The position numbers were made by a program, and so were the translations under genes. From Burkholderia mayonis (GTDB lineage Bacteria; Pseudomonadota; Gammaproteobacteria; Burkholderiales; Burkholderiaceae), in NCBI RefSeq assembly GCF_001523745.2, contig NZ_CP013386.1, positions 1,922,001 to 1,986,000 on the forward strand: 64,000 bases of DNA, given 5' to 3'. Numbering within the stretch: the stretch's first letter is position 1; every line of letters starts with the position of its first letter. The notes under the pieces are model-generated. The model searched no databases. It worked only from the letters and a program-made list of their open reading frames with translations, and had not been told where the DNA came from. This document shows positions 10,152-30,013 of this stretch, piece after piece.

Positions 10152-10487
10152 AGCTACCTCGCATTGACTCACATGTTGAAATTGGCCATGTCATGCATGG
10201 CAAGCAAGTGCGCATTGGATTGCCCGTCAAAATCCAATGCGAGATGCGCGGTCGTGCATATAGGCGCGAGCAGGATGAGTTAGAGATTTCATGCCATATG
10301 CCGTCTAAAAAGTTGTGCCCGATGCAACATTGTGATTAAATTAATATTGAATAATATTTCGCAAAAATCAATATTTAACGTTTGTATTTTTATATGCCTA
10401 TTTATTAATACGATTCCCATATTGCACGAATGTCCACTGGGCTAAAGCGTCTTATGCACTTTTGTTCGGTGCGCCCGCCCAAAGAGG
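10152..10487. other. AT-rich spacer without gene
   Basis: About 336 bases upstream of the EndoU-like gene, very AT-rich between 10310 and 10430. It presumably holds the promoter of that gene. I see no convincing coding frame or RNA. Confidence 0.5.
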
Positions 10488-10985
10488 ATGGAAATACGCA
10501 GACCGTACCCGAGTGACATAACGTACGAAGAACGGAACTTCGTTGTGCCGTATCTGACGCTGATGAAGGAAGAGGCGCCGCAGCGCCAATACGAACTGCG
10601 CGAACTTTGCAACGTGTTGGGCTGGTTGGTCCGTGCAGGCGCACCGTGGAGGTTGTTGCCGACAAACTTCCCGCCGTGGGAGGCCGCGTACCAGCAAACC
10701 CAACGATGGCTGTGTGCAGGCTGCTTCGAAGCGATGACCGACGATCTTCGCTCGATAATTCGTGTGCCACACGGACGTCAGGGCCAATCCAGCACGGTGA
10801 TTCTCGATGGGCGAACGTTGCAATCGGCGCGTGAGAGCGGTCCACGCGCGGGATATGACGGCTAAAGGTGCAAACGCGGTAGCGCGCTGGGTGGTCGAAC
10901 ATAGCTTCGGCTGGATTAACCGCTTTCGCAGACTCGCGCGAGACTACGAGCGCTTGCCCGAAATGCATTTCGTCGTCTTCGTCAC
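10488..10985 (+). pseudogene. IS5-family (IS402-like) transposase with internal deletion
   Basis: The first part reads MEIRRPYPSDITYEERNFVV, then GWLVRAGAPWRLLPTNFPPW and [24 protein letters not shown], the N-terminus of IS402-type transposases. A stop follows at once. The next pieces, [20 protein letters not shown] and ERLPE, belong to the very end of the same protein. The middle with the second catalytic Asp is missing, so this is a deletion remnant. Confidence 0.8.
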
Positions 10986-12208: not shown

Positions 12209-12224
12209 ACTAACCCGCGTTAGT
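12209..12224 (+). promoter_or_regulatory. LacI-type palindromic operator upstream of the glycan-locus regulator
   Basis: ACTAACCCGCGTTAGT is a 16-base palindrome with one mismatch and a central CG, the usual shape of LacI-family operators. It lies about 94 bases before the preferred GTG of the regulator. A related half-site (GCTAACGC, 13660-13667) occurs upstream of the first operon gene. Autoregulation is inferred. Confidence 0.5.
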
Positions 12225-12317
12225 CGTTGATTAGCCAGCAGGGCAGTGATCGCCGTGCGAGTTGCATTTAGCCTTCAGATTGACGCTGAAGGTGATTCGA
12301 ATCAGGGGCAATTTCCA

Positions 12318-13376
12318 GTGAGTCGCGTAACCAGCAACCAGGTAGCCCAACTTGCCGGTGTGTCGAGAACAACGGTGTCATTCGTGTTGAACGGTGTCAC
12401 CGGCATGGGAATCAGCGAGGAAACTCGCACTCGCGTGCTCACGGCAGCTAGAAAGCTCGGCTATGTTCCGAACGCCATGGCTCGATCGCTCGCCAGTGGT
12501 TCGACGAAAACGATCGCGCTCCTCATGCCTCACGGCGATCATATTCACATCGACGTCGACGCCTATCTTCCTCGATTTCTCGCAGGGCTGACCACAGCAT
12601 GTCACGCGAACGGCTACAAGGTCATACTCGAGCCCATTAAGGAATCGCACCGCCCGGGAGCGTTTCTTGATCTCGTGGATAGTGGGCGCATCGATGGTTT
12701 GGTGGTTCTGAATCCACGAAGGCTTGACGATGGCTACCTCCGTAAGCTGGCCCATAAGAAATTTCCGCTCGTCGTCTTCGGCTCGAACCTGACCGATTCG
12801 CAACCGATATGTGCTATTGGCGTCGACAACCGATCTGCCGCTCAACGAGCAACGGAGCATCTGCTTGACCTTTGCCATGAGCGAATTGCACATATCGGCT
12901 TCGCATCCGAGGACTATCAGGTAGTGCACGACCGCCTGGATGGCTTCCGACAAGCACTGGACGCACGCGGTCTGGATGTGCGTCCGGAATGGATTGCATT
13001 CGCCGATTACAGCGCGCAAAGCGGTTATGAAGCCATGCGAAAAATGCTCTCTCGATCATCTCGCATGACAGCGCTGTTCGCCGGTAACGACACTGTAGCG
13101 TTCGGCGCGATGGCCGCGATCCGCGATGCTGGATTGCGCATTCCGGAAGACCTGGCGGTCGTCGGTTACGACGATATTCCGCTCGCGGCATTCGCGGCGC
13201 CTCCACTCACGACGGTTCGTACCGAGCCGTTCAAGGAGGGCAATGACGCGGCAGACATGTTGCTTGGACTTATTGCCGGAAACCCAGCCGATGGGCTGCA
13301 TTTTCGCGGAGTCGCCCCATTGGTTGTCCGACAATCCTGCGGTGCATGTTTTCCAAATATAGAGAAGCGAAACTGA
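12318..13376 (+). CDS. LacI-family regulator of the alpha-galactoside locus
   Basis: About 352 residues. The N-terminal HTH reads VTSNQVAQLAGVSRTTVSFV with the hinge TAARKLGYVPNAMARSL. The rest is a periplasmic-binding-protein-like sensor domain ending in VGYDDIPLAAFAAPPLTTVR, the usual LacI C-terminal signature. I favour the GTG at 12318 (AGGGG upstream) over the GTG at 12246, because the HTH begins there. It is transcribed towards the secreted enzyme, ABC importer and alpha-galactosidase genes, with 366 bases of spacer. The likely role is repression of that operon until its sugar ligand binds. The ligand is unknown but by context a galactoside. Confidence 0.85.
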   Translation: MSRVTSNQVAQLAGVSRTTVSFVLNGVTGMGISEETRTRVLTAARKLGYVPNAMARSLASGSTKTIALLMPHGDHIHIDVDAYLPRFLAGLTTACHANGYKVILEPIKESHRPGAFLDLVDSGRIDGLVVLNPRRLDDGYLRKLAHKKFPLVVFGSNLTDSQPICAIGVDNRSAAQRATEHLLDLCHERIAHIGFASEDYQVVHDRLDGFRQALDARGLDVRPEWIAFADYSAQSGYEAMRKMLSRSSRMTALFAGNDTVAFGAMAAIRDAGLRIPEDLAVVGYDDIPLAAFAAPPLTTVRTEPFKEGNDAADMLLGLIAGNPADGLHFRGVAPLVVRQSCGACFPNIEKRN

Positions 13377-13742: not shown

Positions 13743-15803
13743 ATGAGAGGAAACAATCGACCACGGGGGCCCGAGCCGTATCGCGGCCATGCGACCGTCC
13801 TCTGCGCAACTTTGGCTCTATGCTGGATCGAATTGGCACATGCCACTTGCCCGGCCAATTTCCAGACCCTGAAATTTAGCGATCCGGGTTTCGAACTGGC
13901 AGATGCTGTGGGTTACGCTTGTCCAAGCACATGGACTGTGACATCGGGGGCAGGATGCGCTTCGAACAACTCGCACACCGGTAGCCGAGCAGCGTTCCTG
14001 CCAGGGGCGGACGGCTATTCTGTTTCACAGGCAGTCACTGCTCCGGTAAGCGGATCATTTGACATCTCCGCATGGATTGCAGCGGCCAACGGAGCAGGCG
14101 GTACCTTTTCAGTCCAGGTGGCAGGCCAACCCGTTCAGACGATCACACTTCCCCCCGCCATCTCGACCACGAATTACATCAAGTACACCATCCCGCGTGT
14201 TTCAGTTTCCGCGAATAGCACGGTGACGGTCGCCTTCACGTCGTCGAGCGGGCGCCAGTGGATCAATATCGACGATATCGAGGTCGTGTCCTCGGCACCC
14301 AACGATCCGCAAATTTCCTCGGATAACGCGACCGTCGTCGCGATGTTCAACTGGGCGAAGACAAAGGCCAACTCCTGGGTACGCCAAGCCTGTACAACTG
14401 GCGTCACCAACCTGGATGAGAATAACAAGAGTGGCCAAGGCAGCGCGACATATGCTCTGTCTTACTGGGCTGGCTATCCATTCCGCTCCTACTACTACTC
14501 CCGCGACTTTGCGCACCAGTTCATTGGTGCGCACATGCTGGGACTCGACGCACAAAACAAGACAATGCTAACCGCGTTCGCGTCGACGGCAACTTCCTCG
14601 CGTCAATACTACCCTGCATGGGCGCTGAATTTCGACGGATCGATTGGGAAAACCGATTATTCGAGCGACACATCGTTTGTGCGGGAATTGCCTGCACCAT
14701 TCGAACTTGTGCAGCGTGTCGCAGACGGATATCGTTGGACTGGGGACGCAGATTATGCATCAACGACCGGCTCGCTATACCCGTTCGTGCAGGGCACAGT
14801 CAGTACCTTCGTAGACGACCACTACGGGATACTCGCCGATGGGACGGCCAATGGGCAGCAAGTCAAGGTCGCGCAGGAAAGCGGCTCCGATATCTGGTCT
14901 GGCGTCGCGAGCTACAACGAGGGGGCGCCAGGAAATCCAGTCGAAGCGGCCGACGCGCTGTCCAGCCAATATCAGGCCTATCGCGCGATGCAACAGCTGG
15001 CAACGGCCGCCAGCGATAGCACGACGGCGAGTACCTATGCGAACAAAGCCGGCGACCTGAGAACCTATTACAACAATCCGTGGAGTGTCTATTCGTCCAC
15101 CTCGAACGAGGTAGTACGCAGCTATGACGCGTCTGCGCAAAAATCCATCGCATGGGGCGGCGAGATGAGTTGGTTCCCTCCCATGAAAGGCATCATGGAC
15201 CCGGGTACGCGTCGCAATCAATACATGACCTGGCTCAACACCACTGCGCTCAGTTCGACGCCGGCCAATCTCGAGGCCGTGACCTACCTTCCCGACGCTT
15301 TCTTCGCCGTCCACGATGGCACCACTGCATGGGCATGGATGCAATATGTCTACAACCACATCAACGACGTACACGGGGGCTATGGCAACAGCTTCATCAA
15401 TGCAGACTACCCGGAAGTGTCATTCACGCTCGTCGGGCAGGCGATTGCCGGTCTCCTCGGCGTCGAACCAGATGCACCTAACACCAGGTTGACCACGATT
15501 TCGCAACTGCCGTCCAGCGGCATGACCTGGCTCCAGGTCTCGCACATCCCGATCGGGACCGGCAAGGTCACCGTCAGACATGACGGCACGACAAAAAGCA
15601 CGCTCACCAATGAGAACTCCACCGGGGGATCGACCTACACGTGGCATGCGCGATTCTCTGGCACCTACGCCAAGATCACAGTCAATGGCGTATCCCAGAC
15701 GGCGCAAACCGAGCAGCCGGAGGGCAGCAATGGCCCTACCTACACGTATGTAGACGTTACGGTCGCGCCACAGAGTACCGCGATTGTGCAGGCTTCGAAT
15801 TGA
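13743..15803 (+). CDS. Secreted six-hairpin glycosidase-like protein A with N-terminal beta-sandwich
   Basis: 686 residues, exported by a long signal peptide (hydrophobic ATVLCATLALCWIELAHA, residues about 19-36). Residues about 40-185 form a jelly-roll, carbohydrate-binding-like domain (FSDPGFELADAVGYACPSTW). Residues about 190-580 are helical with aromatic and acidic motifs typical of (alpha/alpha)6 sugar enzymes: YYYSRDFAHQFIGAHMLG, ELPAPFELVQRVADGYRWTG, ASYNEG, MSWFPPMKG and ADYPEVSFTLVGQAIAGLLG. A C-terminal beta domain (residues about 590-686) follows. A paralogue at 22589 shares the SRD, ELPAPFEL and YPEVSF motifs. First gene of the operon, 43 bases before the ABC ATPase. I cannot place it in a named GH family. 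Glycan cleavage is inferred from fold and neighbours. Confidence 0.6.
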   Translation: MRGNNRPRGPEPYRGHATVLCATLALCWIELAHATCPANFQTLKFSDPGFELADAVGYACPSTWTVTSGAGCASNNSHTGSRAAFLPGADGYSVSQAVTAPVSGSFDISAWIAAANGAGGTFSVQVAGQPVQTITLPPAISTTNYIKYTIPRVSVSANSTVTVAFTSSSGRQWINIDDIEVVSSAPNDPQISSDNATVVAMFNWAKTKANSWVRQACTTGVTNLDENNKSGQGSATYALSYWAGYPFRSYYYSRDFAHQFIGAHMLGLDAQNKTMLTAFASTATSSRQYYPAWALNFDGSIGKTDYSSDTSFVRELPAPFELVQRVADGYRWTGDADYASTTGSLYPFVQGTVSTFVDDHYGILADGTANGQQVKVAQESGSDIWSGVASYNEGAPGNPVEAADALSSQYQAYRAMQQLATAASDSTTASTYANKAGDLRTYYNNPWSVYSSTSNEVVRSYDASAQKSIAWGGEMSWFPPMKGIMDPGTRRNQYMTWLNTTALSSTPANLEAVTYLPDAFFAVHDGTTAWAWMQYVYNHINDVHGGYGNSFINADYPEVSFTLVGQAIAGLLGVEPDAPNTRLTTISQLPSSGMTWLQVSHIPIGTGKVTVRHDGTTKSTLTNENSTGGSTYTWHARFSGTYAKITVNGVSQTAQTEQPEGSNGPTYTYVDVTVAPQSTAIVQASN

Positions 15804-15846
15804 GCATGCGTACGCGGTTAAACAACAGGGTTATACGGAGACTGGC

Positions 15847-17091
15847 ATGGCAAGCGTAGTACTGAAAGGCGTGTCCAAAGGGTACGGAAACAGTCCGCCT
15901 ATCGTTCGGAATGTCGATCTCGACATCGCCGAAGGCGAATTCTGTGTATTTCTTGGTGCATCGGGCTGCGGCAAATCCACCCTGCTGCGCATGATCGCTG
16001 GGCTCGAAGATGTCACGGAGGGAGACATCTATATTGGTCAACAGAGAATGAATCTCGTACCGCCCGCGCGCCGCGGCGTGGCGATGGTGTTCCAGAGCTA
16101 TGCGCTCTTTCCTCACATGACCGTGTATGAAAACCTGTCCTTCGGACTGACGCTGTCCGGAACGCCCAAGGCAATGGTCCGAGAAAAGGTTCTCAACGTA
16201 GCGCACGCACTCCAGATCGAACATTTGCTGGATCGCAAGCCGCGAGCACTTTCCGGCGGCCAGCGACAACGCGTTGCGATCGGGCGCGCCATCGCCCGCG
16301 AGCCTGGTGTTTTTCTGTTCGATGAGCCGCTTTCCAATCTGGACGCAGCCTTGCGTGTGCAGACACGCCACGAGATCGCACGAATTCATCGCGAAATTGG
16401 CCACGCATCCACCATTTATGTCACCCACGATCAAGTGGAAGCCATGACCCTCGCAGATCGAGTGGTACTGCTTAACTCTGGCGAGACCGCTCGCCGGATG
16501 GGGAGCCTGGCGCAATCCGGACCGCCACTCGAGCTCTATTACCATCCACGAAGTCGCTTCGTTGCCGAATTCATTGGTTCTCCGAAGATGAATTTTATCG
16601 ACGCCGAACTCATGGACGCTGGCGATCATCTGGCCCAAATGCGTCTGGCCAGCGGAGACGTGCTTTCTGCATGCATCGATGCGAGACACCTGAGTCCGGG
16701 TGCGTCACTCACGCTTGGCGTTCGTCCGGAAGATCTCATTCTCGGCACTCAGACGCAGCATTTCGTACGTGAAGTCATGTGGCAGGAGCGCCTGGGCGAA
16801 GCGACCTATGCCTACCTGAATGGCGGTGACGCGGGTTCGCAATGGATCGCCAAACTGCCTGGTGCGACAAACGTCAGCGCTGGCCAGCGCCTTCCGCTTT
16901 CCGTGCCTCCCGACAAACTGCATGCGTTCGATATCGACGGCAATGCACTGCGACGCTGCCTCGCTCCGCACCCGCCGACAACTACCGTGCCATTCATCGA
17001 AGGCGATTTCGTCGATCGAGCCGGTAGCTCAAGGGTCGCTCGAATGCACGCAGATGGACATTACGACATGTACGGACGCCATTACCAGTAA
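15847..17091 (+). CDS. ABC sugar importer ATPase (MalK/UgpC/MsmX type)
   Basis: About 414 residues. Walker A is GASGCGKST, the Q-loop is VFQSYALFPHMTVYENL, the signature is LSGGQRQR, and Walker B is VFLFDEPLSNLD, with the switch His in YVTHDQVEAMTLADR. The C-terminal half (residues about 240-414) is the regulatory TOBE/OB domain of MalK-type proteins (LGVRPEDLIL). The ATG at 15847 has a GGAG ribosome site. It drives uptake by the two permeases encoded downstream. The linker ETARRMGSLAQSGPPLELYY has a few extra residues compared with the usual GRIEQ.GTP.ELY. Placement of the ATPase before the binding protein is unusual but stays within one operon. Confidence 0.9.
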   Translation: MASVVLKGVSKGYGNSPPIVRNVDLDIAEGEFCVFLGASGCGKSTLLRMIAGLEDVTEGDIYIGQQRMNLVPPARRGVAMVFQSYALFPHMTVYENLSFGLTLSGTPKAMVREKVLNVAHALQIEHLLDRKPRALSGGQRQRVAIGRAIAREPGVFLFDEPLSNLDAALRVQTRHEIARIHREIGHASTIYVTHDQVEAMTLADRVVLLNSGETARRMGSLAQSGPPLELYYHPRSRFVAEFIGSPKMNFIDAELMDAGDHLAQMRLASGDVLSACIDARHLSPGASLTLGVRPEDLILGTQTQHFVREVMWQERLGEATYAYLNGGDAGSQWIAKLPGATNVSAGQRLPLSVPPDKLHAFDIDGNALRRCLAPHPPTTTVPFIEGDFVDRAGSSRVARMHADGHYDMYGRHYQ

Positions 17092-17126
17092 TACTGGCGC
17101 CACAAAAAATCAATGAGGAGAATCAT

Positions 17127-18365
17127 ATGGAGACGCGAAGGAAACTACTGAAAATTGCATTATTGCCATTGATCGTAATAACTGCGCTGAACGCCAATGC
17201 CGCGACCCTTGTCATCAATACAGACACATCCGATCAGGCGGTAAAAGCGGCCTTCGATGCGGCCGTGAACGATTTCAAGGCCGAGAATCCCGACATACAG
17301 GTCAAGGTAAACCGCTTCGACCACGATGCCTATAAGACAGCAATCCGGAACTTCCTGACTGCCGACGCGCCCGACGTGGTGAACTGGTACCCAGGTCACA
17401 AGATGGAACCGTTCGTACGGGCAGGGCTCTTTGAAGACGTGTCCGATATTTGGACAAAATATACCCTCGATGCCAAACTTAAATCCGCCGCCCCCGCAAT
17501 GATGCTGAACGGAAAAAAATGGGGTATCCCTTACACGTATTATCAGTGGGGCATCTACTACCGAAAAGATATTTTTTCGAAAGTTGGCATCGAGCCACCT
17601 AGCACCTGGCAGGAATTGCTCGACGCATGTGCAAAGCTCAAGGCAAACGGCGTCACGCCGTTCGTCATCGGGACCAAGGAACCGTGGCCGAATCTTGCGT
17701 GGTTCGACTACCTCGACCTGCGTGTAAACGGATTTGTATTCCACATGGCCCTGACAGGCGGCAAGGTCCCCTTCAAGGATCCGCGTGTGCGAGCGGTGTT
17801 CGATCGTTGGGATCAGTTGACGAAGCCCGGCTACTTCCTGGCCAATCACGCGTCGTACACATGGCAGGAAGCTTCGGCGTTGCTGGCCCAGGGCAAGGGT
17901 GCGATGTACCTGATGGGCAATTTCGTAGTGGCGCCCATGAAGCAAGCAGGCCTTGACGCCGATAAGCTGGGATTCATGCCGTTTCCCGTCATCGATCCAT
18001 CGATCCCTCGTGCGGAGGAAGCGCCGATCGAGTCGATCCACATCCCGGCAAACGCGAAAAACAAGGCTGATGCACGCCGCTTCCTCGCCTACATGACACG
18101 AGCGGATGTGCAAGCCAAGTACGGCGAGCGAACCGAGGAACTGCCGGTCAATCAGGATGCGCCGCCACCGAGTGACCCCTATCTGAAGGCGGGTGCGGCA
18201 CTGCTCGCGAAGGCACAGGGACTCTCCCAATTTTTCGATCGAGACTCTTCCCCGGAGTTGACCCAGGCCGCCATGGATGCATTCGAGCGGTACATGTTGA
18301 AACCCGACACACGCGACGCCGCACTTGATCGTCTTGAGCAAGTACGTCAGCGCGCTTACAAGTAA
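17127..18365 (+). CDS. Periplasmic sugar-binding protein of the ABC importer (family 1)
   Basis: 412 residues. The Sec signal METRRKLLKIALLPLIVITA to NANA has no lipobox, so the mature protein is free in the periplasm. It has the CUT1 binding-protein pattern: an N-terminal lobe with VNWYPGHKMEPFVRAGLFED, GKKWGIPYTYYQWGIYYRKD and later GKGAMYLMGNFVVAPMKQAG. Tyr/Trp-rich segments suit stacking on sugar rings. An AATGAGGAGAATC leader provides a strong ribosome site, fitting the high expression usual for binding proteins. Lies 35 bases after the ATPase gene. Ligand probably an oligosaccharide released by the secreted enzymes. Confidence 0.88.
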   Translation: METRRKLLKIALLPLIVITALNANAATLVINTDTSDQAVKAAFDAAVNDFKAENPDIQVKVNRFDHDAYKTAIRNFLTADAPDVVNWYPGHKMEPFVRAGLFEDVSDIWTKYTLDAKLKSAAPAMMLNGKKWGIPYTYYQWGIYYRKDIFSKVGIEPPSTWQELLDACAKLKANGVTPFVIGTKEPWPNLAWFDYLDLRVNGFVFHMALTGGKVPFKDPRVRAVFDRWDQLTKPGYFLANHASYTWQEASALLAQGKGAMYLMGNFVVAPMKQAGLDADKLGFMPFPVIDPSIPRAEEAPIESIHIPANAKNKADARRFLAYMTRADVQAKYGERTEELPVNQDAPPPSDPYLKAGAALLAKAQGLSQFFDRDSSPELTQAAMDAFERYMLKPDTRDAALDRLEQVRQRAYK

Positions 18366-18427
18366 GCACCGAATCACTCGCGCCCGGGGCGGGCGCGATA
18401 CTGCGCCCATCCGGCATTGGAGGTCAC

Positions 18428-19351
18428 GTGCGATTCACTGCCACGTCTATCGAACGCTCGTCCATGACATTCTGGGAACGTCACCAGCGCACGATCGCGC
18501 CATGGCTCTTTCTTGCACCCGCGCTTGCGCTATTTTCCGTGTACGTCGTGGCTCCCATCATTCGTTCAATCGGGTTCGGCTTTTACTCGTGGGATGGCTT
18601 GAGCGCGCCGCGTTTCATCGGCCTCGAAAACTATTTCGAGCTCTACGGTGATCCGAACTTCTGGATCGCTGTCAAGAACAATTTTATCTGGCTGGCATGC
18701 TTTCTCCTTGCCGTGCCGGCCGGCCTTTTCTTCGCACTTTTCCTGAATCAAAACGTCTTCGGCATGCGGGCCATCAAATCGCTCTTTTTCTTCCCCTTCG
18801 TCATTTCACAGGCCGTGGTCGGACTCGTGTTCGGCTGGTTCTATGAGCCATCCAATGGCCTTCTGTTTCACGCGCTGCATTGGTTCGGCGTCACGCCCGT
18901 AGCCGTGCTCTCCGATGAACGATACGTTACCTACGGAATCGTTGCCGCTGGGCTCTATCCGCAGATCTCGTATTGCATGATTCTTTACCTGACCGGACTC
19001 TCGAACGTCCGCGCCGATCTGATCGAAGCGGCCCGTCTCGAAGGCGCGCACGGCTGGCGAATGCTGTGGTCCGTCATCCTGCCGCAACTGCGCTCGGCGA
19101 CGTTCGTCGCGATAGTCATTACGGTCGTCGGTGCGCTACGCAGCTTCGATATGGTGTCGATCATGACCCAGGGCGGTCCTTACGGATCGTCGCGGGTCCT
19201 TGCCTATTACATGTACGAGCAAGCACTTGGCGATTACGGCTACCGAGTCGGATACGGCTCAGCCATCGCGACGATCTTGTTTCTGATCATGCTGATCTAC
19301 ATCGGCTTCGTGCTCGCTCGCGTCTACAAGCAGGAAAGGGAGTTCGTCTGA
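18428..19351 (+). CDS. ABC sugar importer permease (MalF/UgpA type)
   Basis: About 307 residues with six predicted membrane helices (WLFLAPALALFSVYVVAPII is the first). The cytoplasmic EAA loop, EAARLEGAHGWRMLWSVILP, contacts the ATPase. The start is a GTG at 18428 preceded by TTGGAGGTCAC, a good ribosome site. An internal Met at codon 13 (MTFWERHQRT) is an alternative start. The gene ends directly against the ATG of the second permease, so the two are translationally linked. Confidence 0.9.
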   Translation: MRFTATSIERSSMTFWERHQRTIAPWLFLAPALALFSVYVVAPIIRSIGFGFYSWDGLSAPRFIGLENYFELYGDPNFWIAVKNNFIWLACFLLAVPAGLFFALFLNQNVFGMRAIKSLFFFPFVISQAVVGLVFGWFYEPSNGLLFHALHWFGVTPVAVLSDERYVTYGIVAAGLYPQISYCMILYLTGLSNVRADLIEAARLEGAHGWRMLWSVILPQLRSATFVAIVITVVGALRSFDMVSIMTQGGPYGSSRVLAYYMYEQALGDYGYRVGYGSAIATILFLIMLIYIGFVLARVYKQEREFV

Positions 19352-20203
19352 ATGTTTCCCACACCGATTGCACAGGCCAGTCGCCCCACTCAGTGCCTCT
19401 ACCGGGTAGCGGTTACGGTTGCGCTCGTCATCTGGCTCTTGCCGCTGCTGGGGATCGCGTTGACGTCAATCCGTGGCCCCGCCGACATTTTTTCCGGAAA
19501 TTACTGGGGGTGGCCGACCCAATGGCAGATCGTCGAGAACTATCGCGAAATTTTTTCAGACACGCCTCTCGCGCATTATCTCGTCAACACTTGCCTGATC
19601 ACCATCCCGTCGGTAATCGGCGCCGTGGCACTGAGTTGCATGGCCGGCTTTGCGCTCGGCGTATACCGATTCAGGCTCAACCTGCCGGTCTTCTTCCTCT
19701 TCCTGGCGGGCAACTTCGTGCCGTTTCAGATCCTGATGATTCCCGTACGTCTCATGAGTCTTCGGCTCGGACTCTATAACTCGGTGTCCGGCCTCGTGTT
19801 GTTTCATATCGCGTTCAACACGGGCTTCTGTACGTTTTTCATGCGCAATTTCATCCTCGAACTGCCACGCGAGCTGATCGAGGCCGCGCGTATGGATGGC
19901 GCCAGCGAATTCCAGGTTTTCTACAAGGTCGTATTGCCGCTTGTGCGGCCGGCAATGGCTGCGATTTCCGTCCTTGTTTTTACCTTCGTGTGGAACGACT
20001 ACTTCTGGGCCACCGTACTCGTGCAAGGCGATCACGCCATGCCCGTCACGGCAGGACTGAAAACACTGAGCGGTATTTGGGTCGCGCAATGGCATCTCGT
20101 CGCGGCAGGTTCGCTCGTCGCGGCTCTCCCGCCCGTGCTCATTTTCTTCCTCAGGCAACGACACTTTATCGCAGGTCTCACGATGGGGGCCACCAAGGGC
20201 TAG
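19352..20203 (+). CDS. ABC sugar importer permease (MalG/UgpE type)
   Basis: 283 residues with six membrane helices and the EAA motif EAARMDGASEFQVFYKVVLP. It opens immediately after the TGA of the partner permease. Together with the ATPase, binding protein and first permease this is a complete CUT1-type importer. The gene for the cytoplasmic alpha-galactosidase starts 4 bases after its stop, so import and hydrolysis are coordinated. Confidence 0.9.
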   Translation: MFPTPIAQASRPTQCLYRVAVTVALVIWLLPLLGIALTSIRGPADIFSGNYWGWPTQWQIVENYREIFSDTPLAHYLVNTCLITIPSVIGAVALSCMAGFALGVYRFRLNLPVFFLFLAGNFVPFQILMIPVRLMSLRLGLYNSVSGLVLFHIAFNTGFCTFFMRNFILELPRELIEAARMDGASEFQVFYKVVLPLVRPAMAAISVLVFTFVWNDYFWATVLVQGDHAMPVTAGLKTLSGIWVAQWHLVAAGSLVAALPPVLIFFLRQRHFIAGLTMGATKG

Positions 20204-20207
20204 ACGT

Positions 20208-22349
20208 ATGTTCAACACAAAACTTATCCAACTGAATGGCTCAAATCTGTGTATCGCGCTGGAGAAATCGGCCGATACGCCGCCTCTATGGCGCCATTTC
20301 GGCACGAAACTGGAACCGCACGCCATCACCTGGCGTGCGGATGACGCGCGCCCCCATCCGCCGACGATACTCGACGGCGACCCGCCATTCACGGCGTTTT
20401 CGACGCACGGATTCGGCTGGTTCCATCAACCGGCACTCGTCGGAAGTCGGCCCGGCGAAGTTGGCGACATCGACTGGGCTCAGAACTTCCACCTCGACGA
20501 GTTGAGTGTCGACAACCACTCGATAACGATGAAGCTGAGCGATGAGCAGGCCGAGCTGGGCGCAATCCTCAATTACACGATCGATCCCGCATCCGACGTC
20601 GTGACGATGTGGGCCGAATTGGAGAACCGCGGCGCAACCCCATTCCGTGTCGATTGGCTAGCCGCCGCCGCGGTGCCGCTGCCGCCAGACGCGGATCGGG
20701 TCCTGGGTTTCTCTGGCCGCTGGACACTGGAATTCCTGGAAAAGCGCGAAATGCTGGGTTCCGCAACGTGGAGACGCGACAACCGGCGCGGTCGCACTTC
20801 TCACGACTCGTTTCCGGGAGTCATGGTCGGCTCATCGCTGGCGGACGATGCGGGCGCCGTATACGGCGCGCATCTCGGATGGAGCGGAAACCACACCATC
20901 ATTATCGAACCGATGACCGACGGTCGCCGGCAGCTGCAATTGGGAGAGTGGCTGGCACCGGGCGAAGTCGTGCTTGCCCCGGACCAGCGCTATCGCACCC
21001 CATGCGCCTTCCTTTCATACAGTGAGCACGGCCTGAATGGCTTAAGTGCGCAGTTCCACCGTTTCGTTCGGGCGAATGTGCTGCGCTGGCCACGGCAACA
21101 CATGCAGCCTCGACCTGTCATCCTTAATACGTGGGAAGCCACGTACTGCGACCATGATCTCGAGGGGCTCAAGGAACTGGCGAGTGCGGGAGCACAGATC
21201 GGTATCGAGCGATTCGTCCTCGACGATGGCTGGTTCCATCGACGCGACAGCGATCGCGCGGGACTGGGCGATTGGTGGCCCGATGCGAACAAGTATCCTC
21301 AAGGGCTCACGCCACTCATCCATCACGTTCGAGGTCTGGGCATGGAGTTCGGCCTATGGATCGAACCTGAAATGGTCAATCAGGATAGCGAATTGTATCG
21401 CGCTCGACCGGACTGGATTCTCCAGCTCGACGGTCGACCACTCGTGACAGGACGTAATCAGCTCGTACTGGACCTCACGGAACCGGATGTGCCCGAATAT
21501 ATCTTCAAGCATATCAGCGCCTTGCTGCGCGAGCATTCGATCTCCTATCTCAAGTGGGACATGAACCGCGATCTCGCCACGGCAGGCCATCGCGGCATTC
21601 CCGCATACAGGCGTCAGACCCATGCGTTCTATGCGTTGCTCGACCGGTTACGCACTGCGTTCCCTTCCGTGGAAATCGAGAGTTGCGCCTCTGGCGGCGG
21701 ACGTGCCGATTACGGCGTGCTGGCTCGCATGCACCGCGTCTGGGCGAGCGATTGCAATGACGCACTCACGCGCATCGGTATTCAACGCGGCTTTCTGCGT
21801 TTCTTCCCTCCCGAGCTCATGGGGGCGCATATCGGAGCCGACTGCTCCCACACGACCGGCCGTCGGCACACTCTTGCCTTCAGGGCTGCAGTCGCGCTCT
21901 TCGGTCATCTTGGCGTGGAGATCGACCCACGAGCAGCACCTGCCGACGAGATTAAAGCCCTCATGCGCTGGATCGCCATATACAAGGAATGGCGGCCGGT
22001 CTTACATGCTGGAACCCTCCATCAGGGGCATGTCGGAGAGGCGCTCTCCTGGACTCAGGTCGTCGCCGAAGACGGAAATGCATCACTTCTGGCGGTCTAT
22101 CGACTATGCGAGGACGACGCGCGATACGCCACGCCGCTAAAGATCAACGGATTGAGGCGCGACATCGCCTATCGAATGCAGATGCTCTATGCCCCTGTCG
22201 CGCCACATTTCGTGAAACCGACGGATATGTTCACGACGATGCAGAACGAAGGCGTCGTGATCTCGGGCGCAAGCCTGCTGGACTTCGGTATGCCACTTCC
22301 ACCCATGCCGCCTGAATCCGCTGTCGTGATTTCTATAACGTCGGCCTAG
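20208..22349 (+). CDS. GH36 alpha-galactosidase
   Basis: 713 residues, the usual size for GH36. It hydrolyses terminal alpha-galactose from oligosaccharides. The sequence shows an N-terminal beta-supersandwich, then a (beta/alpha)8 barrel with FVLDDGWFHRRD, GLWIEPEMVNQDSELY, YLKWDMNRD (Asp nucleophile in KWDMN), ESCASGGGRADYGVL, and WASDCNDALTRIGIQRG (acid/base Asp in SD). A C-terminal beta domain follows. No signal peptide, so cytoplasmic, acting after the ABC importer it is fused to in the operon. All catalytic motifs are intact. This is the strongest clue to the substrate of the whole locus. Confidence 0.95.
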   Translation: MFNTKLIQLNGSNLCIALEKSADTPPLWRHFGTKLEPHAITWRADDARPHPPTILDGDPPFTAFSTHGFGWFHQPALVGSRPGEVGDIDWAQNFHLDELSVDNHSITMKLSDEQAELGAILNYTIDPASDVVTMWAELENRGATPFRVDWLAAAAVPLPPDADRVLGFSGRWTLEFLEKREMLGSATWRRDNRRGRTSHDSFPGVMVGSSLADDAGAVYGAHLGWSGNHTIIIEPMTDGRRQLQLGEWLAPGEVVLAPDQRYRTPCAFLSYSEHGLNGLSAQFHRFVRANVLRWPRQHMQPRPVILNTWEATYCDHDLEGLKELASAGAQIGIERFVLDDGWFHRRDSDRAGLGDWWPDANKYPQGLTPLIHHVRGLGMEFGLWIEPEMVNQDSELYRARPDWILQLDGRPLVTGRNQLVLDLTEPDVPEYIFKHISALLREHSISYLKWDMNRDLATAGHRGIPAYRRQTHAFYALLDRLRTAFPSVEIESCASGGGRADYGVLARMHRVWASDCNDALTRIGIQRGFLRFFPPELMGAHIGADCSHTTGRRHTLAFRAAVALFGHLGVEIDPRAAPADEIKALMRWIAIYKEWRPVLHAGTLHQGHVGEALSWTQVVAEDGNASLLAVYRLCEDDARYATPLKINGLRRDIAYRMQMLYAPVAPHFVKPTDMFTTMQNEGVVISGASLLDFGMPLPPMPPESAVVISITSA

Positions 22350-22588
22350 GGGGGGAGGCGTAGCAAGCGGACACATTGTGACGCTGCATGAATGCGCAAC
22401 TCACGCATCAAGGACAAGATCGTTCCACCTTTGATTGTGCGGCACCTCGTGGATATGGATTTTACTGAGTTTCACTTGCTCACGTTTTGATGATTATAAA
22501 AATAATTTAGCACTACGACGTATTTACTTTTTATGATCACCTTGACCTGAGCACGGCTGCTCCACCCTTAACTTCAAGGAGTCGAAAC

Positions 22589-24454
22589 ATGAATGCCAAT
22601 TCCAAAATAGGCCAGCGCTTCACGCCTTCCATGAGCAATTTAAGCACAGTAAAAACGATTAATTCGTGGAATAAATCCATGGCTCGATTTAAACCAAACA
22701 CATTGATCGTGGCCATGTTCCTCAGTGGTTTACTTTTCGGCTTCCAGGGTGAGGCGATCGCAGAATTGACAGCAACTTCCAGCGAACCAACACCGGCATC
22801 CGATCAGGGAACCTTGGCGAGCGGCTTTAATGCTGCAGTCGCCGAGGCTCGTACGCTGGACTTCACTCCAACGAACTATTCGACACTGTATAACGCAAAC
22901 ATACAAAGTTGGAAAAACGACAAATTGACGGATAACACAACGTTCGCATGCCCGAATCCGAGCACCAATCCTACGCTCTCACCCGGATATCTTGCAGGCC
23001 TCTGGGATCGATGTGCTTACTACTCAAGGGATTATGTCCATCACGCTACCGGCGCGTATTATCTCGGCTACTACGAGCAGAACTATACAATGGCCGATAA
23101 GTTCGCCACGACGTACCACGTAAATGGCGGCGTCAACGCGCCTTATTGGGCAATCAGCGTTATGGGGCTTCCGTACGAGCAGGGTGACGAATTGCCAGCC
23201 CCGTTTGAGCTCGGTGAAAATATTGCAAAAATGTATCGACTTACGGCCGACAGTCGATATCTTGGGCAGGACTTTAAGAACTACATTTCACAAATGACAA
23301 GTTACGTCAATGCAACCAGTACTGTGGGCAATACGAGTGGAACGTCTCTCAATCCGGATGGATTTCGGATGGCTCGAACGCAGAATGGCGAGACGGCATC
23401 CTACAACGAGAAATTATATGATAATACCGGGTCATCTAATGGCCAATTATACGCAAATAAGACACTTCTTTTAGGGGGGGATTTGGCCGCGAGCCAGATT
23501 GCGTACTATCGAGCCATTTCAAATTATCCTGACCTCGCAACGCAATACTCCCCGGGAAACTATAGCAATCTGCTGAAAAATTTTAACTCTAATTGGTATT
23601 CGTCAAGCGCGAACCATTTTTACGTTGGTCTCGTCGGAGATTCTGGCACATATTACTCAAGCAATTCAACCCCAAACTATTCAAGCCTGACTTACGCTGA
23701 TTTGTATATCAGAGAACCCAACATAATTCCCCTGTACAAGGGCGTCATTACGGATCCCGCAAAAATTCAAAGCCAGGCAAATTACATTGACACCAAGGAA
23801 GAGTTAAATTATGCCAACAGCAATTATAACCTCGGGTATCCTGGTATCGAGTATCATACCTATATGCCAAGTTCCTTCTATAATGCCAATATGCCCGATA
23901 AGGCATGGAAATGGTTGACGAGATTGGCAAAGTGGCAAGTTAACAATAATACCGGCGCGTATCCGGAGGTCTCTTTTGCAATGATCTCCGATACAATTAC
24001 GAAGGTTCTTGGGCTGGACTACGATGCACCGAACAGCGTGCTTTCTACGCTCAGCGGTCTTCCGTCTACGTTTGCAGCCGGGAATTACGTTAAGGTGAGC
24101 AATATTCCGATTTACAACAAAGCGAAGAATGCCACCATAAACGTTAACGTTACTCAAAAAGTTAATGCTGGCGGTTCGATTGAGACTGATCTTGGATTTG
24201 CTACAGATCTTACTACCGTGGCATGGAATCAAGGATTCCATTGGGTGCCGAAATTTAACAACTCCGGCACAAATACTCACTGTACCGTGACCACTACGTA
24301 TACCAACGGATCAACAGGTGCGTCCACTTGGAATCTGGTGACAGATCCGACGACTAATATTTCTTCCTGCTTGGATAGTAACAAGCAGGGTGTCTGGGTC
24401 TACACAGGCCAGGGAGCGAACGTTACGTCCGTAGCAGCTTCTCTTGCCCCTTAA
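22589..24454 (+). CDS. Secreted six-hairpin glycosidase-like protein B, paralogue of A
   Basis: 621 residues. An AAGGAG site precedes the ATG at 22589. The hydrophobic export segment comes late (LIVAMFLSGLLFGFQG, residues about 39-54, then EAIA), so a 30-residue extended N-region or a later start at 22679 is possible. The helical core shares YYSRDYVHHATGAYYLGYYE, GDELPAPFELGENIAKMYRL, TASYNEK and YPEVSFAMISDTITKVLGLD with protein A but lacks its N-terminal beta-sandwich. A C-terminal beta domain follows. It is separated from the alpha-galactosidase by about 240 bases, is more AT-rich than the upstream operon, and is Asn/Tyr-rich. Probably a second enzyme for the same polymer. No named GH family recognised. 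Confidence 0.6.
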   Translation: MNANSKIGQRFTPSMSNLSTVKTINSWNKSMARFKPNTLIVAMFLSGLLFGFQGEAIAELTATSSEPTPASDQGTLASGFNAAVAEARTLDFTPTNYSTLYNANIQSWKNDKLTDNTTFACPNPSTNPTLSPGYLAGLWDRCAYYSRDYVHHATGAYYLGYYEQNYTMADKFATTYHVNGGVNAPYWAISVMGLPYEQGDELPAPFELGENIAKMYRLTADSRYLGQDFKNYISQMTSYVNATSTVGNTSGTSLNPDGFRMARTQNGETASYNEKLYDNTGSSNGQLYANKTLLLGGDLAASQIAYYRAISNYPDLATQYSPGNYSNLLKNFNSNWYSSSANHFYVGLVGDSGTYYSSNSTPNYSSLTYADLYIREPNIIPLYKGVITDPAKIQSQANYIDTKEELNYANSNYNLGYPGIEYHTYMPSSFYNANMPDKAWKWLTRLAKWQVNNNTGAYPEVSFAMISDTITKVLGLDYDAPNSVLSTLSGLPSTFAAGNYVKVSNIPIYNKAKNATINVNVTQKVNAGGSIETDLGFATDLTTVAWNQGFHWVPKFNNSGTNTHCTVTTTYTNGSTGASTWNLVTDPTTNISSCLDSNKQGVWVYTGQGANVTSVAASLAP

Positions 24455-24906: not shown

Positions 24907-25031
24907 AGCGATGTCAAGTTGAGCGGTCAGGCGATCAATTGGAGGCATGATTGCCTCGGCCGTTTCACCTCAAAATCTCACAAGACCATCCGAACGAGCG
25001 CGGCAACCTCTACATCAACATGGAGATTAAC

Positions 25032-26063
25032 ATGAAGCGTAAGACTAGCGCAGTATTTTTCCTGGGTTGCATGACTTTGATTGGAGGAACGGCCCGGGGG
25101 GTCGGAGTCGCGAGCATCAACTTTCGCACAACTGCTACAACTGATATTACCGCGTCGCTGGTAGCGAGCGGACTAAATTCTGTGGGATCCGATTGGTATC
25201 CAAATATGACCATCAATGGAGCGACTTGTCTGCAAGATGGCGACATGTTGAAATTGAGATGCGGCAGCATTGAAGTTCAGGCATATACGAATTCTAGTGA
25301 CACAGACAATGCCGAATTCAGATTTTACAATCTCTCCCCTGGGACGTCATATAATATTTCGCTACGTGCAAGCAGTTGGTCTGGAGGTGGGCAAGGTAGC
25401 GGATCGACAACATTCCAAACGCGCTACGGCTACTCCCAAATAGATAGGGCTGCTTGGAGCGGCAAGGAATTGGATGCGTCACGGCACGAGACAAATTGCG
25501 GCAACGTTGGCCAGCTAAATTGCTGGCAGTGGGATGATCAGGTTCGAGATAATCTCGTTATGGATTCTACTCAACTCGATTGGACTTCAACCATTCGAGA
25601 TGGCGGACAATTCCCGGAAGATGGCAGGTATATTTTTGTGTACAGGACGATCGATAATACTCTTGTTCTTAGAAAATATGATCGCGCCCACAATGACGAA
25701 AATCAGTCTTGTTTGGCTTATAGCAAATATAGATTTAAGCCGAATTTGAATAGCGATGGCTCATATAAGCACGTTCGCCATAGCCAGCTAAATGGTGGGT
25801 GGAGCCCTGTGTGGTGTGCCGGAGAAATGACCGTGAAATTTGGACAACTCTGGAGATTAAATAATGCATCCGGCCACTATCAACCACCTCAGACGTGTCT
25901 TGCGTACGTCGAAGACACACTTAGAACATTCCAGTATTCATTTGCTCCTGATTATGTGAGTGGAAATTATTCGACGGTTTCGACGGCAGAGTCGAACTGC
26001 GACACCGTTCCGGATCCGCTGCCTAGCCAGGACGATAGGGACGAAGTTCCTGGCATGCCCTAA
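25032..26063 (+). CDS. Secreted protein with beta-sandwich and SGHYxP-motif C-terminal domain
   Basis: About 343 residues from the ATG at 25032 (TGGAG upstream). An alternative in-frame ATG lies at 25020. The signal peptide MKRKTSAVFFLGCMTLIGGT is followed by a beta-rich FN3-like domain (residues about 25-125, PGTSYNISLRASSW). The C-terminal ~200 residues hold YIFVYRTIDNTLVLRKYDRA, RHSQLNGGWSPVWCAGEM and LWRLNNASGHYQPP. The pattern HS.L..G....AGE.....G.L..LNN.SGHY.P is a motif I associate with C-terminal regions of various bacterial secreted or toxin-like proteins of unclear activity. It ends with an acidic tail. Low GC, probably acquired. Function not assigned. Confidence 0.6.
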   Translation: MKRKTSAVFFLGCMTLIGGTARGVGVASINFRTTATTDITASLVASGLNSVGSDWYPNMTINGATCLQDGDMLKLRCGSIEVQAYTNSSDTDNAEFRFYNLSPGTSYNISLRASSWSGGGQGSGSTTFQTRYGYSQIDRAAWSGKELDASRHETNCGNVGQLNCWQWDDQVRDNLVMDSTQLDWTSTIRDGGQFPEDGRYIFVYRTIDNTLVLRKYDRAHNDENQSCLAYSKYRFKPNLNSDGSYKHVRHSQLNGGWSPVWCAGEMTVKFGQLWRLNNASGHYQPPQTCLAYVEDTLRTFQYSFAPDYVSGNYSTVSTAESNCDTVPDPLPSQDDRDEVPGMP

Positions 26064-27288: not shown

Positions 27289-27541
27289 AAAGCATGATCG
27301 TGATTTTTCCTGGGTGATTGGATAGGGGGATTCTGAATTTTGTCCTCGATAACAGGCGCCGATATAGCGTACAAATTCGCGCAAACGTTTCACATCGTTT
27401 TTGATCCGCATTAGCCGATTGAATAATTTAATTTTCAATATTTAAAGAATTTGTATAGAAAAGTTCATATTTGATATGGTCTCAGGCAAATAAATTCCTC
27501 GCTGCAATCGGATGTTTTTGAATCGACTTGGTGAGGATGGA

Positions 27542-30013
27542 ATGAACAAGACATATCGGGTGAGGTGGAGCGAATCGCGGGGCGAGTGGGTTGTGGCGCC
27601 GGAGACTGCATCTGCAGCGGGGAAGGGGCGGTCGCTGAAGTCCGCACGGAGAGCGCGTGTCATTACGCGCGCGAATGCACTTGCATTTGCGCTCGGTGTC
27701 GCAGCGTGCGGCGCGGCATACGGGCAGGCGTCGGGCTTCTCCGGGATTCCGGACACGAATGGCGGAAAGGTCGGAGCGGGTATTCCGACGGGCAATACGA
27801 CGACTGAGTTCATTGCCATCGGCAATGGCGCAGGACAGAACGTTAGCGCTCCAGCGGATGCGAACAACAAAGGTCCCGGCGACGACTATGCAATTGGCAC
27901 GTCCGCAGGTAACAACGTGACCGGACACTACAATCTGGCGTTCGGTTACCAAACGGGCAGCAACGTGACCGGCACGAGCAATAACGCGATCGGTGCGCAG
28001 GCTGGCCAGAATGTCAGCGGCCTGGCCAATCTCGCGATCGGTAACATGACCGGCAACGCCGTGAGAGGTACTCGCAATATCGCGTTCGGTGATTTTGCCG
28101 GAACGAACGTGACGGGCGACGAAAACCAGGCAAGCGGCAATATGGCCGGCTACAACGTGACCGGCTCGGACAATCAGGCGAGCGGATATCACGCAGGCTT
28201 CAACGTCGTCGGCCAGCGCAATCTCTCGCAGGGCCTTCTGGCGGGCAATGGCGTCTCCGGCGTCGACAACCAGGCCGCGGGGGAGAGCGCAGGGAGTAAC
28301 GTGACCGGCAGCTTCAACCTGTCGAGCGGCTTCCAGGCCGGCAACAGCGTATCGGGCGACGGCAATCAGGCAAGCGGCTTCAAGGCTGGCCAAAACGTCA
28401 GCGGCGCGAACAATCTCGCGTTCGGAAGCACGGATCCGGGCGCCACGACGGTTGGTACCGGCAGCGACGTGACAGGGAACAACAACCAGGCCATGGGACA
28501 TCAGGCCGGACAAAAGGTGTCGGGCGACAACAACATTGCGTTCGGTACTTTGGCTGGCAACAACGTGACCGCAGGCAACACGATCAGCATCGGTATGGCG
28601 GCGGCGGCAACCGCAAATGATGCGATTGCGGTCGGCACAAGCGCCATAGCCAATTCGGCCAGCGCTGTCGCGATCGGCAATCTGGCCACGGCAACCGGTG
28701 GCCAGGCCGTGTCGATCGGCGCCGCAAACACGGCAAGCGGAAACGGCGCCGTCGCGATCGGCGATCCGAACGTTGCAACGGGTACCGGTGCCGTAGCCCT
28801 TGGCGCAAATAACACCGCCAACGGCCAGGGCGCCGTCGGCCTCGGCAATCAGAACTCGGCGACCGGCCAGGGTTCGGTCGCGATTGGCAACACGTCGGTT
28901 GCATCCGGCACAGGCTCGCTCGCATTTGGCGATACGGCGAGCGCATCTTCGAACGGCGGCGTCGCACTCGGTAGCAGCACGGTTGCCAACCGCTCCGGCA
29001 TGAACGGAGCAAAGGAACTGTTCTCGAACATGGTGGTGGGTTCGACCGTCGGTGCCGTGTCGGTCGGCGCACCTGGGGCAGAGCGCCAGATCACGAACGT
29101 CGCGGGTGGCACGCAGGACACCGACGCGGTCAACGTCCGCCAGCTCAAGTGGGTGCACGACAACGCCGTCAATTACGACATCAACCCGGATGGCTCGATC
29201 AATTACACCAGCGTTACGCTGAATCCGACCGGGCTGCCGGTCGGCATCCACAATCTCGCGCCGGGCGTTATCGGGCCGAACAGCCTCGACGCGGTCAACG
29301 GTAGTCAGTTGTTTACGCTGAAAAACGATTTGACCAACTCGATCGACCAGGTGCAGAAAAATCTGGACCAGACGAACCAGACACTCAACCAGACGAATCA
29401 AACGCTCAACCAGACGAACCAGACTGTTCAGCAGATTCAGTCGACCCCGACGTCGACAGGGGGCGGCGACAAGTGGGTGACCGGCAATCCGACGACCTAT
29501 ATCGCGCCGTCTGCAACCGGCGTCGATTCGACTGCGATCGGTTCGGGTGCCCGGTCGAGCGGTCGCAACAGCGTCGCACTCGGCAACGGATCGACCGACG
29601 GCGGCCAGGATAACGTGGTGTCGATCGGTTCCACAGGCAACGAGCGCCGCATCGTCAACGTCGCCAAGGGGGTGAACGGAACCGATGGTGTCAACGTGTC
29701 GCAGTTGAACGATGCGATCAATCAGTCGACCGACAATTTCAACCAGCAGCTCGGCGGAATCAGGCAGGACGTCAACAACGTTGCGCGTGCCGCGTACGGC
29801 GGCATCGCCGCGGCGACCGCGCTGACGATGATTCCCGAGGTCGACAAGGACAAGACGATCGCTGTGGGTGTCGGCGGCGGCACGTATCGTGGATATCAGG
29901 CGGTCGCGCTCGGTGCGACGGCGCGCATTACCGAGAACATCAAGTTCCGCGCCGGCGTCGGCATGAGCGGCGCGGGCACGACGGCCGGCGTCGGTGCTTC
30001 GATGCAGTGGTAA
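27542..30013 (+). CDS. Trimeric autotransporter adhesin (YadA/BpaC-like)
   Basis: About 823 residues. The ATG at 27542 opens the extended signal ESPR motif (MNKTYRVRWSESRGEWVV), followed by the hydrophobic NALAFALGVAACGAAYGQA. Residues about 60-330 are ~14-residue head repeats of the type NVTG..NQASG..AG, then classic YadA-head repeats (SAVAIGNLATATGGQAVSIG). A neck (VNVRQLKWV) leads to a stalk with TNQTLNQTNQTLNQTNQTV, a second head piece (DSTAIGSGARSSGRNSVALG) and neck (NVSQLNDAIN). The final ~70 residues form the YadA membrane anchor. It is assembled as a trimer in the outer membrane and mediates adhesion. Burkholderia BpaC/BoaA adhesins have this layout. Downstream OmpA-like and TPR genes complete a typical cluster. 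Confidence 0.92.
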   Translation: MNKTYRVRWSESRGEWVVAPETASAAGKGRSLKSARRARVITRANALAFALGVAACGAAYGQASGFSGIPDTNGGKVGAGIPTGNTTTEFIAIGNGAGQNVSAPADANNKGPGDDYAIGTSAGNNVTGHYNLAFGYQTGSNVTGTSNNAIGAQAGQNVSGLANLAIGNMTGNAVRGTRNIAFGDFAGTNVTGDENQASGNMAGYNVTGSDNQASGYHAGFNVVGQRNLSQGLLAGNGVSGVDNQAAGESAGSNVTGSFNLSSGFQAGNSVSGDGNQASGFKAGQNVSGANNLAFGSTDPGATTVGTGSDVTGNNNQAMGHQAGQKVSGDNNIAFGTLAGNNVTAGNTISIGMAAAATANDAIAVGTSAIANSASAVAIGNLATATGGQAVSIGAANTASGNGAVAIGDPNVATGTGAVALGANNTANGQGAVGLGNQNSATGQGSVAIGNTSVASGTGSLAFGDTASASSNGGVALGSSTVANRSGMNGAKELFSNMVVGSTVGAVSVGAPGAERQITNVAGGTQDTDAVNVRQLKWVHDNAVNYDINPDGSINYTSVTLNPTGLPVGIHNLAPGVIGPNSLDAVNGSQLFTLKNDLTNSIDQVQKNLDQTNQTLNQTNQTLNQTNQTVQQIQSTPTSTGGGDKWVTGNPTTYIAPSATGVDSTAIGSGARSSGRNSVALGNGSTDGGQDNVVSIGSTGNERRIVNVAKGVNGTDGVNVSQLNDAINQSTDNFNQQLGGIRQDVNNVARAAYGGIAAATALTMIPEVDKDKTIAVGVGGGTYRGYQAVALGATARITENIKFRAGVGMSGAGTTAGVGASMQW

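Follow-up and report, generated by a model that had tools for sequence, protein, structure and literature searches.

A Candidate New Family of Secreted (α/α)6 Glycoside Hydrolases Flanking a Sugar Importer and a GH36 α-Galactosidase in Burkholderia mayonis

Organization of the Locus

The stretch of DNA analyzed here (the window) comprises 64,000 nucleotides of Burkholderia mayonis (contig NZ_CP013386.1, positions 1,922,001 to 1,986,000) and contains two genes, denoted E1 and E2, whose products are diverged paralogues (28% identity over 407 residues in BLASTP, 97.8 bits, E 2e-25). These genes flank an ATP-binding cassette (ABC) sugar importer and an α-galactosidase of glycoside hydrolase (GH) family 36, and no third member of the family was found at E ≤ 0.001 in the 6.59 Mb of the same genome. 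We consider it probable that E1 and E2 represent a new family, undescribed in the libraries searched, of secreted and inverting (α/α)6 GHs that act on galactose-bearing glycans. The features of the locus, in window coordinates, are the following:

12210..12223, no strand assigned: candidate LacI operator palindrome CTAACCCGCGTTAG, 22 bp 5' of the LacI start
12246..13376, + strand: LacI-family regulator (PF00356 and PF13377 in Pfam)
13743..15803, + strand: E1, 686 residues, putative signal peptide (by eye) and enzyme domains
14919..14921, + strand: E1 Glu393 (YNE), candidate general acid in the α5–α6 loop (DSSP of the model and alignment)
15414..15416, + strand: E1 Glu558 (YPEV), candidate general base, α11–α12 (DSSP of the model and alignment)
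15847..17091, + strand: ABC transporter ATPase of the MsmK/MalK type (PF00005, PF17912, PF08402)
17127..18365, + strand: solute-binding protein, family 1 (PF01547)
18428..19351, + strand: ABC permease 1 (PF00528)
19352..20203, + strand: ABC permease 2 (PF00528)
20208..22349, + strand: GH36 α-galactosidase (PF16875, PF02065, PF16874)
22589..24454, + strand: E2, 621 residues, paralogue without the N-terminal carbohydrate-binding module (CBM), putative signal peptide (by eye)
23408..23410, + strand: E2 Glu274 (YNE), candidate general acid, aligned with E1 E393 and located between helices 227–240 and 297–311
23966..23968, + strand: E2 Glu460 (YPEV), candidate general base, aligned with E1 E558 and located in helix 459–473

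An initial annotation had placed the two open reading frames (ORFs) at 13743 and 22589, had considered their products paralogous and had proposed that their operon supplies an importer and an α-galactosidase. All of this was borne out, the last point by Pfam matches, which showed that the intervening genes encode the importer (its ATPase, its solute-binding protein and two permeases) and a genuine GH36 enzyme. The lacI gene and its upstream palindrome, which were missing from that annotation, are also part of the operon unit. The genes from the ATPase through GH36 are separated by 0–62 bp, and the gaps around the paralogues measure 366 bp (5' of E1), 43 bp (3' of E1) and 239 bp (5' of E2); the ATPase ORF is open from 15784, its likely ATG being that at 15847. 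Judging from their sequences, E1 and E2 are probably secreted: both N-termini resemble signal peptides by eye, and a lipobox-like LAGC or LTGC is present in some E2 relatives (P0017, P0019 and P0020). The GH36 protein was matched over its N-terminal, catalytic and C-terminal domains (PF16875, 2.7e-41; PF02065, 1.3e-120; PF16874, 5.4e-06, with 27.2 bits against a cut-off of 27), and its matches in the PDB are AgaB, AgaA and AgaSK (E 1e-104 to 6e-103). This enzyme is probably cytosolic, since no signal peptide is seen by eye.

Sequence Relatives and Predicted Fold

The earlier remark that the two proteins match no GH family that can be named proved correct, in that no confident match to a GH or lyase was obtained in Pfam, NCBIfam or the PDB, which are the libraries (without CAZy profiles among them) against which the novelty of the family was judged. 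Neither E1 nor E2 reached the cut-off of any Pfam or NCBIfam family, and neither matched, at E ≤ 1, a PDB sequence or a GH model of these two collections, the Pfam models of GH15 and GH65 included. No paper on this family was among those listed in literature searches. Protein searches returned 21 relatives for E2 (E2 included), 190 for E1 and 362 with a mixed alignment (A4). Among the 21, the best 120 of the 190 and the best 120 of the 362, the names given are hypothetical or derived from lectins or CBMs, and the sole catalytic family in the last of these sets is PF22422 (presumably MGH1-like, of the GH63 type), precomputed in one relative. One E2-type protein named from Burkholderia pseudomallei (P0004, 64% identity to E2) represents a cluster of 699 sequences.

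A profile of 47 rows, made of the window protein and 46 of 141 relatives, matched, in the region of the N-terminal module, seven PDB chains, most of which are known structures of CBMs; two Adhesin A chains were dismissed as chance matches (E about 4). In Pfam, CBM35 was detected in 23 and CBM6 in 14 of these 47 members at E ≤ 1 (best values 2.9e-07 and 2.7e-11, respectively) and ricin B domains in nine, while single members gave weak matches to GH94 (E 0.0014) and GH95 (E 0.055). NCBIfam returned chiefly lectin and anchor domains for the same set, plus isolated weak matches.

The AlphaFold2 models (pLDDT 91 for E1 and 87 for E2) contain a 12-helix (α/α)6 barrel in both proteins, in agreement with the helical six-hairpin-like core that had been proposed for them. 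In E1, a CBM35/CBM6-like β-sandwich (residues 40–185, approximately) precedes the barrel (196–571), which is followed by a C-terminal β-sandwich (574–686); E2 is made of the barrel (76–473) and a C-terminal β-sandwich (477–621). The E1 protein of the window has no CBM35 or CBM6 match over the cut-off, and Foldseek aligns it with the CBM61 structure 2xon (TM 0.70 of the target), presumably through the N-terminal sandwich. The nearest solved folds, according to Foldseek and VIA-align, are rhamnosidases, invertases and other (α/α)6 enzymes, at 7–15% identity, and other fold relatives include fucosidases, arabinosidases and glucosidases; the absence of a family from these lists was not counted as its exclusion.

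Conserved Acids and a Candidate Catalytic Pair

The motifs reported earlier as common to E1 and E2 were confirmed. The alignment used has 216 rows, namely the two window proteins, P0001–P0205 (P0001 being a duplicate of E2) and nine rows taken from loci. In E1 numbering, E393 (YNE), D404, E474, E511 and E558 (YPEV) are identical in 216/216 rows. D255 (SRD) is Asp in 215 of the 216 rows, with one gap; E315 is Glu in 214, with Lys in P0014 and P0015; and E321 (PFE) is Glu in 208, Asp in five and Asn in three. Four acids had been put forward as catalytic candidates, and two of them stand, namely those of YNE and YPEV, which are invariant and lie in the acid and base slots described below. That of PFE was dropped because E321 varies, and D255 of SRD more likely binds the substrate or positions water than acts as a catalyst.

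In the E1 model, DSSP assigns helices α5 to residues 345–359, α6 to 403–422, α11 to 526–538 and α12 to 557–571. The α5–α6 loop (360–402) contains E393, α12 begins at the YPE sequence with E558, Y252 is found just before α2, and D255 is on α2; the equivalent columns in E2 are E274, E460, Y145 and D148. According to a comparison of GH65 and GH15, the acid is located on the α5–α6 loop and the base on the α11–α12 loop, a Tyr of α1–α2 contacts the base, and an Asp of α2 helps to hold the nucleophilic water (PMC8626586). In the model, E393 and E558 thus fall where inverting (α/α)6 hydrolases have their acid and their base, and a catalytic role is predicted for them as a candidate pair. The other invariant acids are placed at the starts of α6, α8 and α10, which by topology is probably the side at which barrels of this type have the opening of their cleft.

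Gene Company across Bacteria

A contig scan of genomes yielded 142 relatives, and 80 of these were retained as loci. These come mainly from Streptomyces, Kitasatospora and Nonomuraea, and the remaining ones include Burkholderia, Paraburkholderia, Rhodococcus, Saccharopolyspora, Paenibacillus, Gordonibacillus, Agromyces, Algoriphagus and a metagenome-assembled genome of Ruminococcaceae. Clustering of the neighbors gave a LacI-type regulator in 43/80 loci, a divergent Melibiase-domain protein in 40/80, one type of solute-binding protein in 36/80 and a GH110-like protein in 12/80. When six queries were used in phmmer (>60 bits), an α-galactosidase-type gene was detected in 61 of the 80 loci, a count that strengthens the earlier proposal that the substrate bears α-galactosyl residues, although the loci share ancestry and are not independent events. 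By type, five loci carry GH36, 42 a GH36-like gene, eight GH27 and 12 a GH110-like gene, some loci having two; the count for GH27 remained at 8/80 after removal of the ricin part of the query, a possible source of inflation. GH36 or GH36-like genes are present in 46/80 loci, against a background of about 1.3% per 22 kb, measured for PF02065 alone (108 matches in 19 such genomes, approximately 186 Mb, E1-adjacent ones included).

Pfam searches with 54 further neighbors gave GH27, GH36, GH3, GH42 and GH4 among the best 25 of 97 families, and a GH4-type gene, recognized by motif (and by Pfam for the one scanned), is found in three Paenibacillus loci. E1 and GH27 appeared to be fused in L063 and L067, but this came from reading out of frame, and the two are adjacent genes. 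In Paenibacillus alginolyticus, a GH94-type phosphorylase of 1117 residues with SOGP domains is encoded near E1 (L071:16153-19506). The Bacillota members L076:8246-12871 and L082:8102-12835 have about 1550 residues and Ig-like domains, and the former has S-layer homology domains, which would probably anchor the enzyme at the cell surface.

As for the importer, the best solved relative of the window solute-binding protein is AcbH (3oo6, E 6.5e-54), described as a binder of β-D-galactopyranose (PMC8233162). The solute-binding protein of the actinobacterial locus L055 has 6q5g and 6h0h as its nearest solved relatives, the latter being Bal6GBP, which is presented as selective for β-1,6-galactobiose (PMC8106489). 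By their sequence relationships, these proteins point to galactose on the import side, but in β-linked or free form.

Distribution and Interchange of E1 and E2

Both genes are found together in the window and in B. catarinensis (L003), while E1 is alone in the two Paraburkholderia loci (L004 and L005). The converse situation, an operon with E2 alone, occurs in L100 and L101 (genomes G183 and G137, of the same bacterial family), where E2 lies beside LacI in the place of E1 (L100) or after GH36 (L101), and neither genome gave a second match to the enzyme family. Because each of them can stand alone in the operon, it is suggested that E1 and E2 share one task, which they may either both perform or divide between them. 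Both are rare: when weak cross-matches to the other paralogue were separated by identity, E1 was present in 2/65 and E2-type genes in 5/65 genomes of the genus, and E2-type genes in 7/299 genomes of the bacterial family.

In a tree of 47 rows, the Burkholderiales E1 proteins fall within a group of Rhodococcus and Kitasatospora rows (100/100), a placement that would be consistent with transfer from Actinomycetota, and E2 lies apart on a long branch of its own (100/100). The deep branching order is unsure, given the midpoint root and a long-branch warning (P0021, L068 and L077). A third subfamily, in which YFE replaces YNE (L032:1118-3223, L037:12616-15309 and L049:1035-3755), occurs alongside E1 in actinobacterial loci; its L037 member has fn3 and NPCBM domains at the C-terminus, and those of L032 and L049 show similar tails in the alignment.

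The LacI Regulator, Its Palindrome and the Surrounding Genes

A relative of the LacI regulator is present in the same operon in L003, L004, L005, L100 and L101. The pattern CTAACNCGNGTTAG has a single exact match in the whole genome, as in the window, namely the sequence at 12210–12223, the expectation by chance being about 0.4 per genome with equal bases. The palindrome recurs 5' of lacI in L004, L005 and L100 and 5' of E2 in L003; L005 has two copies, and one of these falls within the longest ORF, the actual start codon of which probably lies further on. None of the actinobacterial loci yielded the palindrome, and the sequence of L101 ends inside lacI. Allowing three mismatches, the window has 17 sites versus a mean of 18.5 in shuffled sequences, so only the exact site counts. 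Within the window, no palindrome was found directly 5' of E1 or E2, and the other LacI operator patterns tried gave no match upstream of the operon. The palindrome is supported as an operator by its position and its recurrence, and the window LacI would bind it and act as a repressor.

Upstream of the operon, two ORFs (6873–7322, − strand, and 10488–10865, + strand) contain the IS4/5-type transposase domain DUF4096, which fits a region that is accessory and mobile. Between these two pieces is encoded a secreted-looking protein of 766 residues (7872–10172, − strand) that had no Pfam match at E ≤ 1, and further upstream lies a protein with a Fic domain (PF02661; 5016–5861, + strand). Directly after E2, there is a secreted-looking protein of 370 residues with a weak fn3 match as its only one (24951–26063, + strand), and 27512–30013 (+ strand) encodes a YadA-type trimeric autotransporter with ESPR signal, head, stalk and anchor domains.

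Proposed Function and Alternatives

In the model that we favor, E1 and E2 would act outside the cytoplasm on a polysaccharide that contains galactose, cutting either the polymer or the side chains on it into small oligosaccharides, E1 being aided by its CBM. The ABC importer would take up these products, and the cytosolic GH36 would then remove α-galactose; without the sugar, the LacI repressor bound to the palindrome before lacI would keep the operon off. The reaction would be a hydrolysis with inversion, in which E393 (E274 in E2) serves as the acid and E558 (E460 in E2) as the base; Y252, R254 and D255 would give subsite −1 its shape, and the substrate would carry α-galactosyl residues. A bolder version is, in our opinion, tentative and rather doubtful: that this is the first inverting enzyme with an (α/α)6 barrel to split α-D-galactosidic bonds inside a polymer, an α-galactan depolymerase with members in Actinomycetota, Bacillota, Bacteroidota and Burkholderiales that are in most cases accompanied by an importer and exo-α-galactosidases of their own, and that E1 and E2 are alternative isozymes for the same step. 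An (α/α)6 α-D-galactosidase family is not known to exist, and the literature search gave no direct support for mushroom fucogalactan as the substrate.

Several points weigh against the favored model. No activity is known for any member of the family, whose names are hypothetical or taken from lectins and CBMs, and likeness of fold is not function, since phosphorylases, lyases and epimerases are also built on this fold (a cellobiose 2-epimerase ranks fifth for E2 in Foldseek). The residue roles rest on topology and not on alignment, because hhalign to GH78 and GH15 failed. Nineteen of the 80 loci, among them the Bacteroidota locus L077, the Paenibacillus locus L076, both Agromyces loci and one of Rhodococcus, have none of the α-galactosidase types tested, and just one of the 19 (L014) ends within 5 kb; moreover, three of the seven Burkholderiales E2 loci (L097–L099) lack the operon within 18 kb. 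Finally, the ligands of the solute-binding protein relatives are β-linked or free galactose and not α-galactosides.

The alternative that survives best, although we find it improbable, maintains that E1 and E2 are hydrolases whose α-galactosidase company is incidental, the substrate being set by another sugar, such as arabinose, fucose or rhamnose, and α-Gal being just a cap. The range of fold relatives, from rhamnosidases and fucosidases to arabinosidases and glucosidases, would agree with this notion, as would the β-linked or free galactose bound by the importer relatives. However, four α-galactosidase-type families accompany E1 across Actinomycetota, Bacillota and Pseudomonadota (the Bacteroidota locus L077 has none), which points to α-Gal being released from the product itself.

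We give distinctly less credit to the possibility that E1 and E2 are very diverged members of GH78, or of another named (α/α)6 family, so that no new family is needed; they could be, for example, α-L-rhamnosidases that release a sugar and thereby expose α-Gal oligosaccharides. Rhamnosidase structures, aligned over the barrel and the C-terminal sandwich, lead the lists for E1 and the Foldseek list for E2, and the isolated matches of relatives to GH94, GH95 and PF22422 could be read in the same sense. However, besides the 7–15% identity and the lack of any GH model at E ≤ 1, several families score no more than about 3 Z units below the top one for E1 and E2 in VIA-align, and the GH78 catalytic model PF17389 neither matched E1 or E2 at E ≤ 1 nor appeared among the best 25 of 31 families found in the 47 members. 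The GH78 signature, which includes the general acid, is DxPxRxExxGWxGD; it is present in three of the four GH78 proteins fetched and in 0/216 rows of the family. Comparisons by hhalign produced no alignment with a GH78 profile (probability <1%) or a GH15 profile (probability 0.15%), which is weak evidence because these profiles, built from proteins of four actinobacterial genomes, had just four and nine rows, respectively.

That E1 and E2 could be (α/α)6 polysaccharide lyases or sugar epimerases instead of hydrolases appears quite unlikely. Chondroitin ABC lyases rank 33 and 37 for E1 in Foldseek, and cellobiose and glucose 2-epimerases rank 5, 6 and below for E2, but the best 50 rows of VIA-align for each protein are GH chains, with no lyase or epimerase named. 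In addition, the invariant Glu pair occupies the acid and base slots of hydrolases, the neighbors are mostly α-galactosidase types and galactose-type importers, and secretion is unsuited to an epimerase. We regard inverting phosphorylases such as those of GH94 or GH65 as very improbable. By eye, the proteins appear to be secreted or lipid-anchored, a setting in which phosphorolysis would be unprofitable. The invariance of E558 also speaks against this reading, given that in GH65 phosphorylases the position of the hydrolase's base Glu is taken by serines that bind phosphate (PMC8626586). Whether lyase, epimerase or phosphorylase, none of these alternatives agrees with the acid pair, the secretion and the gene company as well as a hydrolase does.

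If the hydrolase model is right, E1, E2 and their relatives would be the founding set of a new GH family, with clear domain boundaries, two candidate catalytic Glu residues to mutate and two natural isozymes at hand, and the conserved operon would restrict the range of substrates to glycans that carry galactose. A function would then be assigned to several hundred proteins (362 matches), which are named as hypothetical or after lectins or CBMs where listed.

Comparison with Known Systems

E1 and E2 share the (α/α)6 barrel and the C-terminal β-sandwich with GH78-type α-L-rhamnosidases (8iwf, 3cih and 2okx), but identity is 8–12%, there is no GH78 profile match or signature, and the conserved motifs differ. 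With respect to clan GH-L (GH15 glucoamylases and GH65 hydrolases), E393, E558, Y252 and D255 are in matching topological positions, although there is no sequence match and the context of E1 and E2 is of the galactose type and not of the glucose type. Neutral/alkaline invertases (GH100) and GH116 β-glucosidases show 9–10% identity over the barrel, and their substrates, by title, are sucrose or β-glucosides. Regarding the operon, α-galactoside utilization operons of the raffinose type combine MsmEFGK with GH36, and here too LacI, an ABC importer with an MsmK-like ATPase and GH36 form one unit. However, the window unit adds two secreted depolymerase candidates, and its relatives one or two, which implies a polymer rather than raffinose-type sugars.

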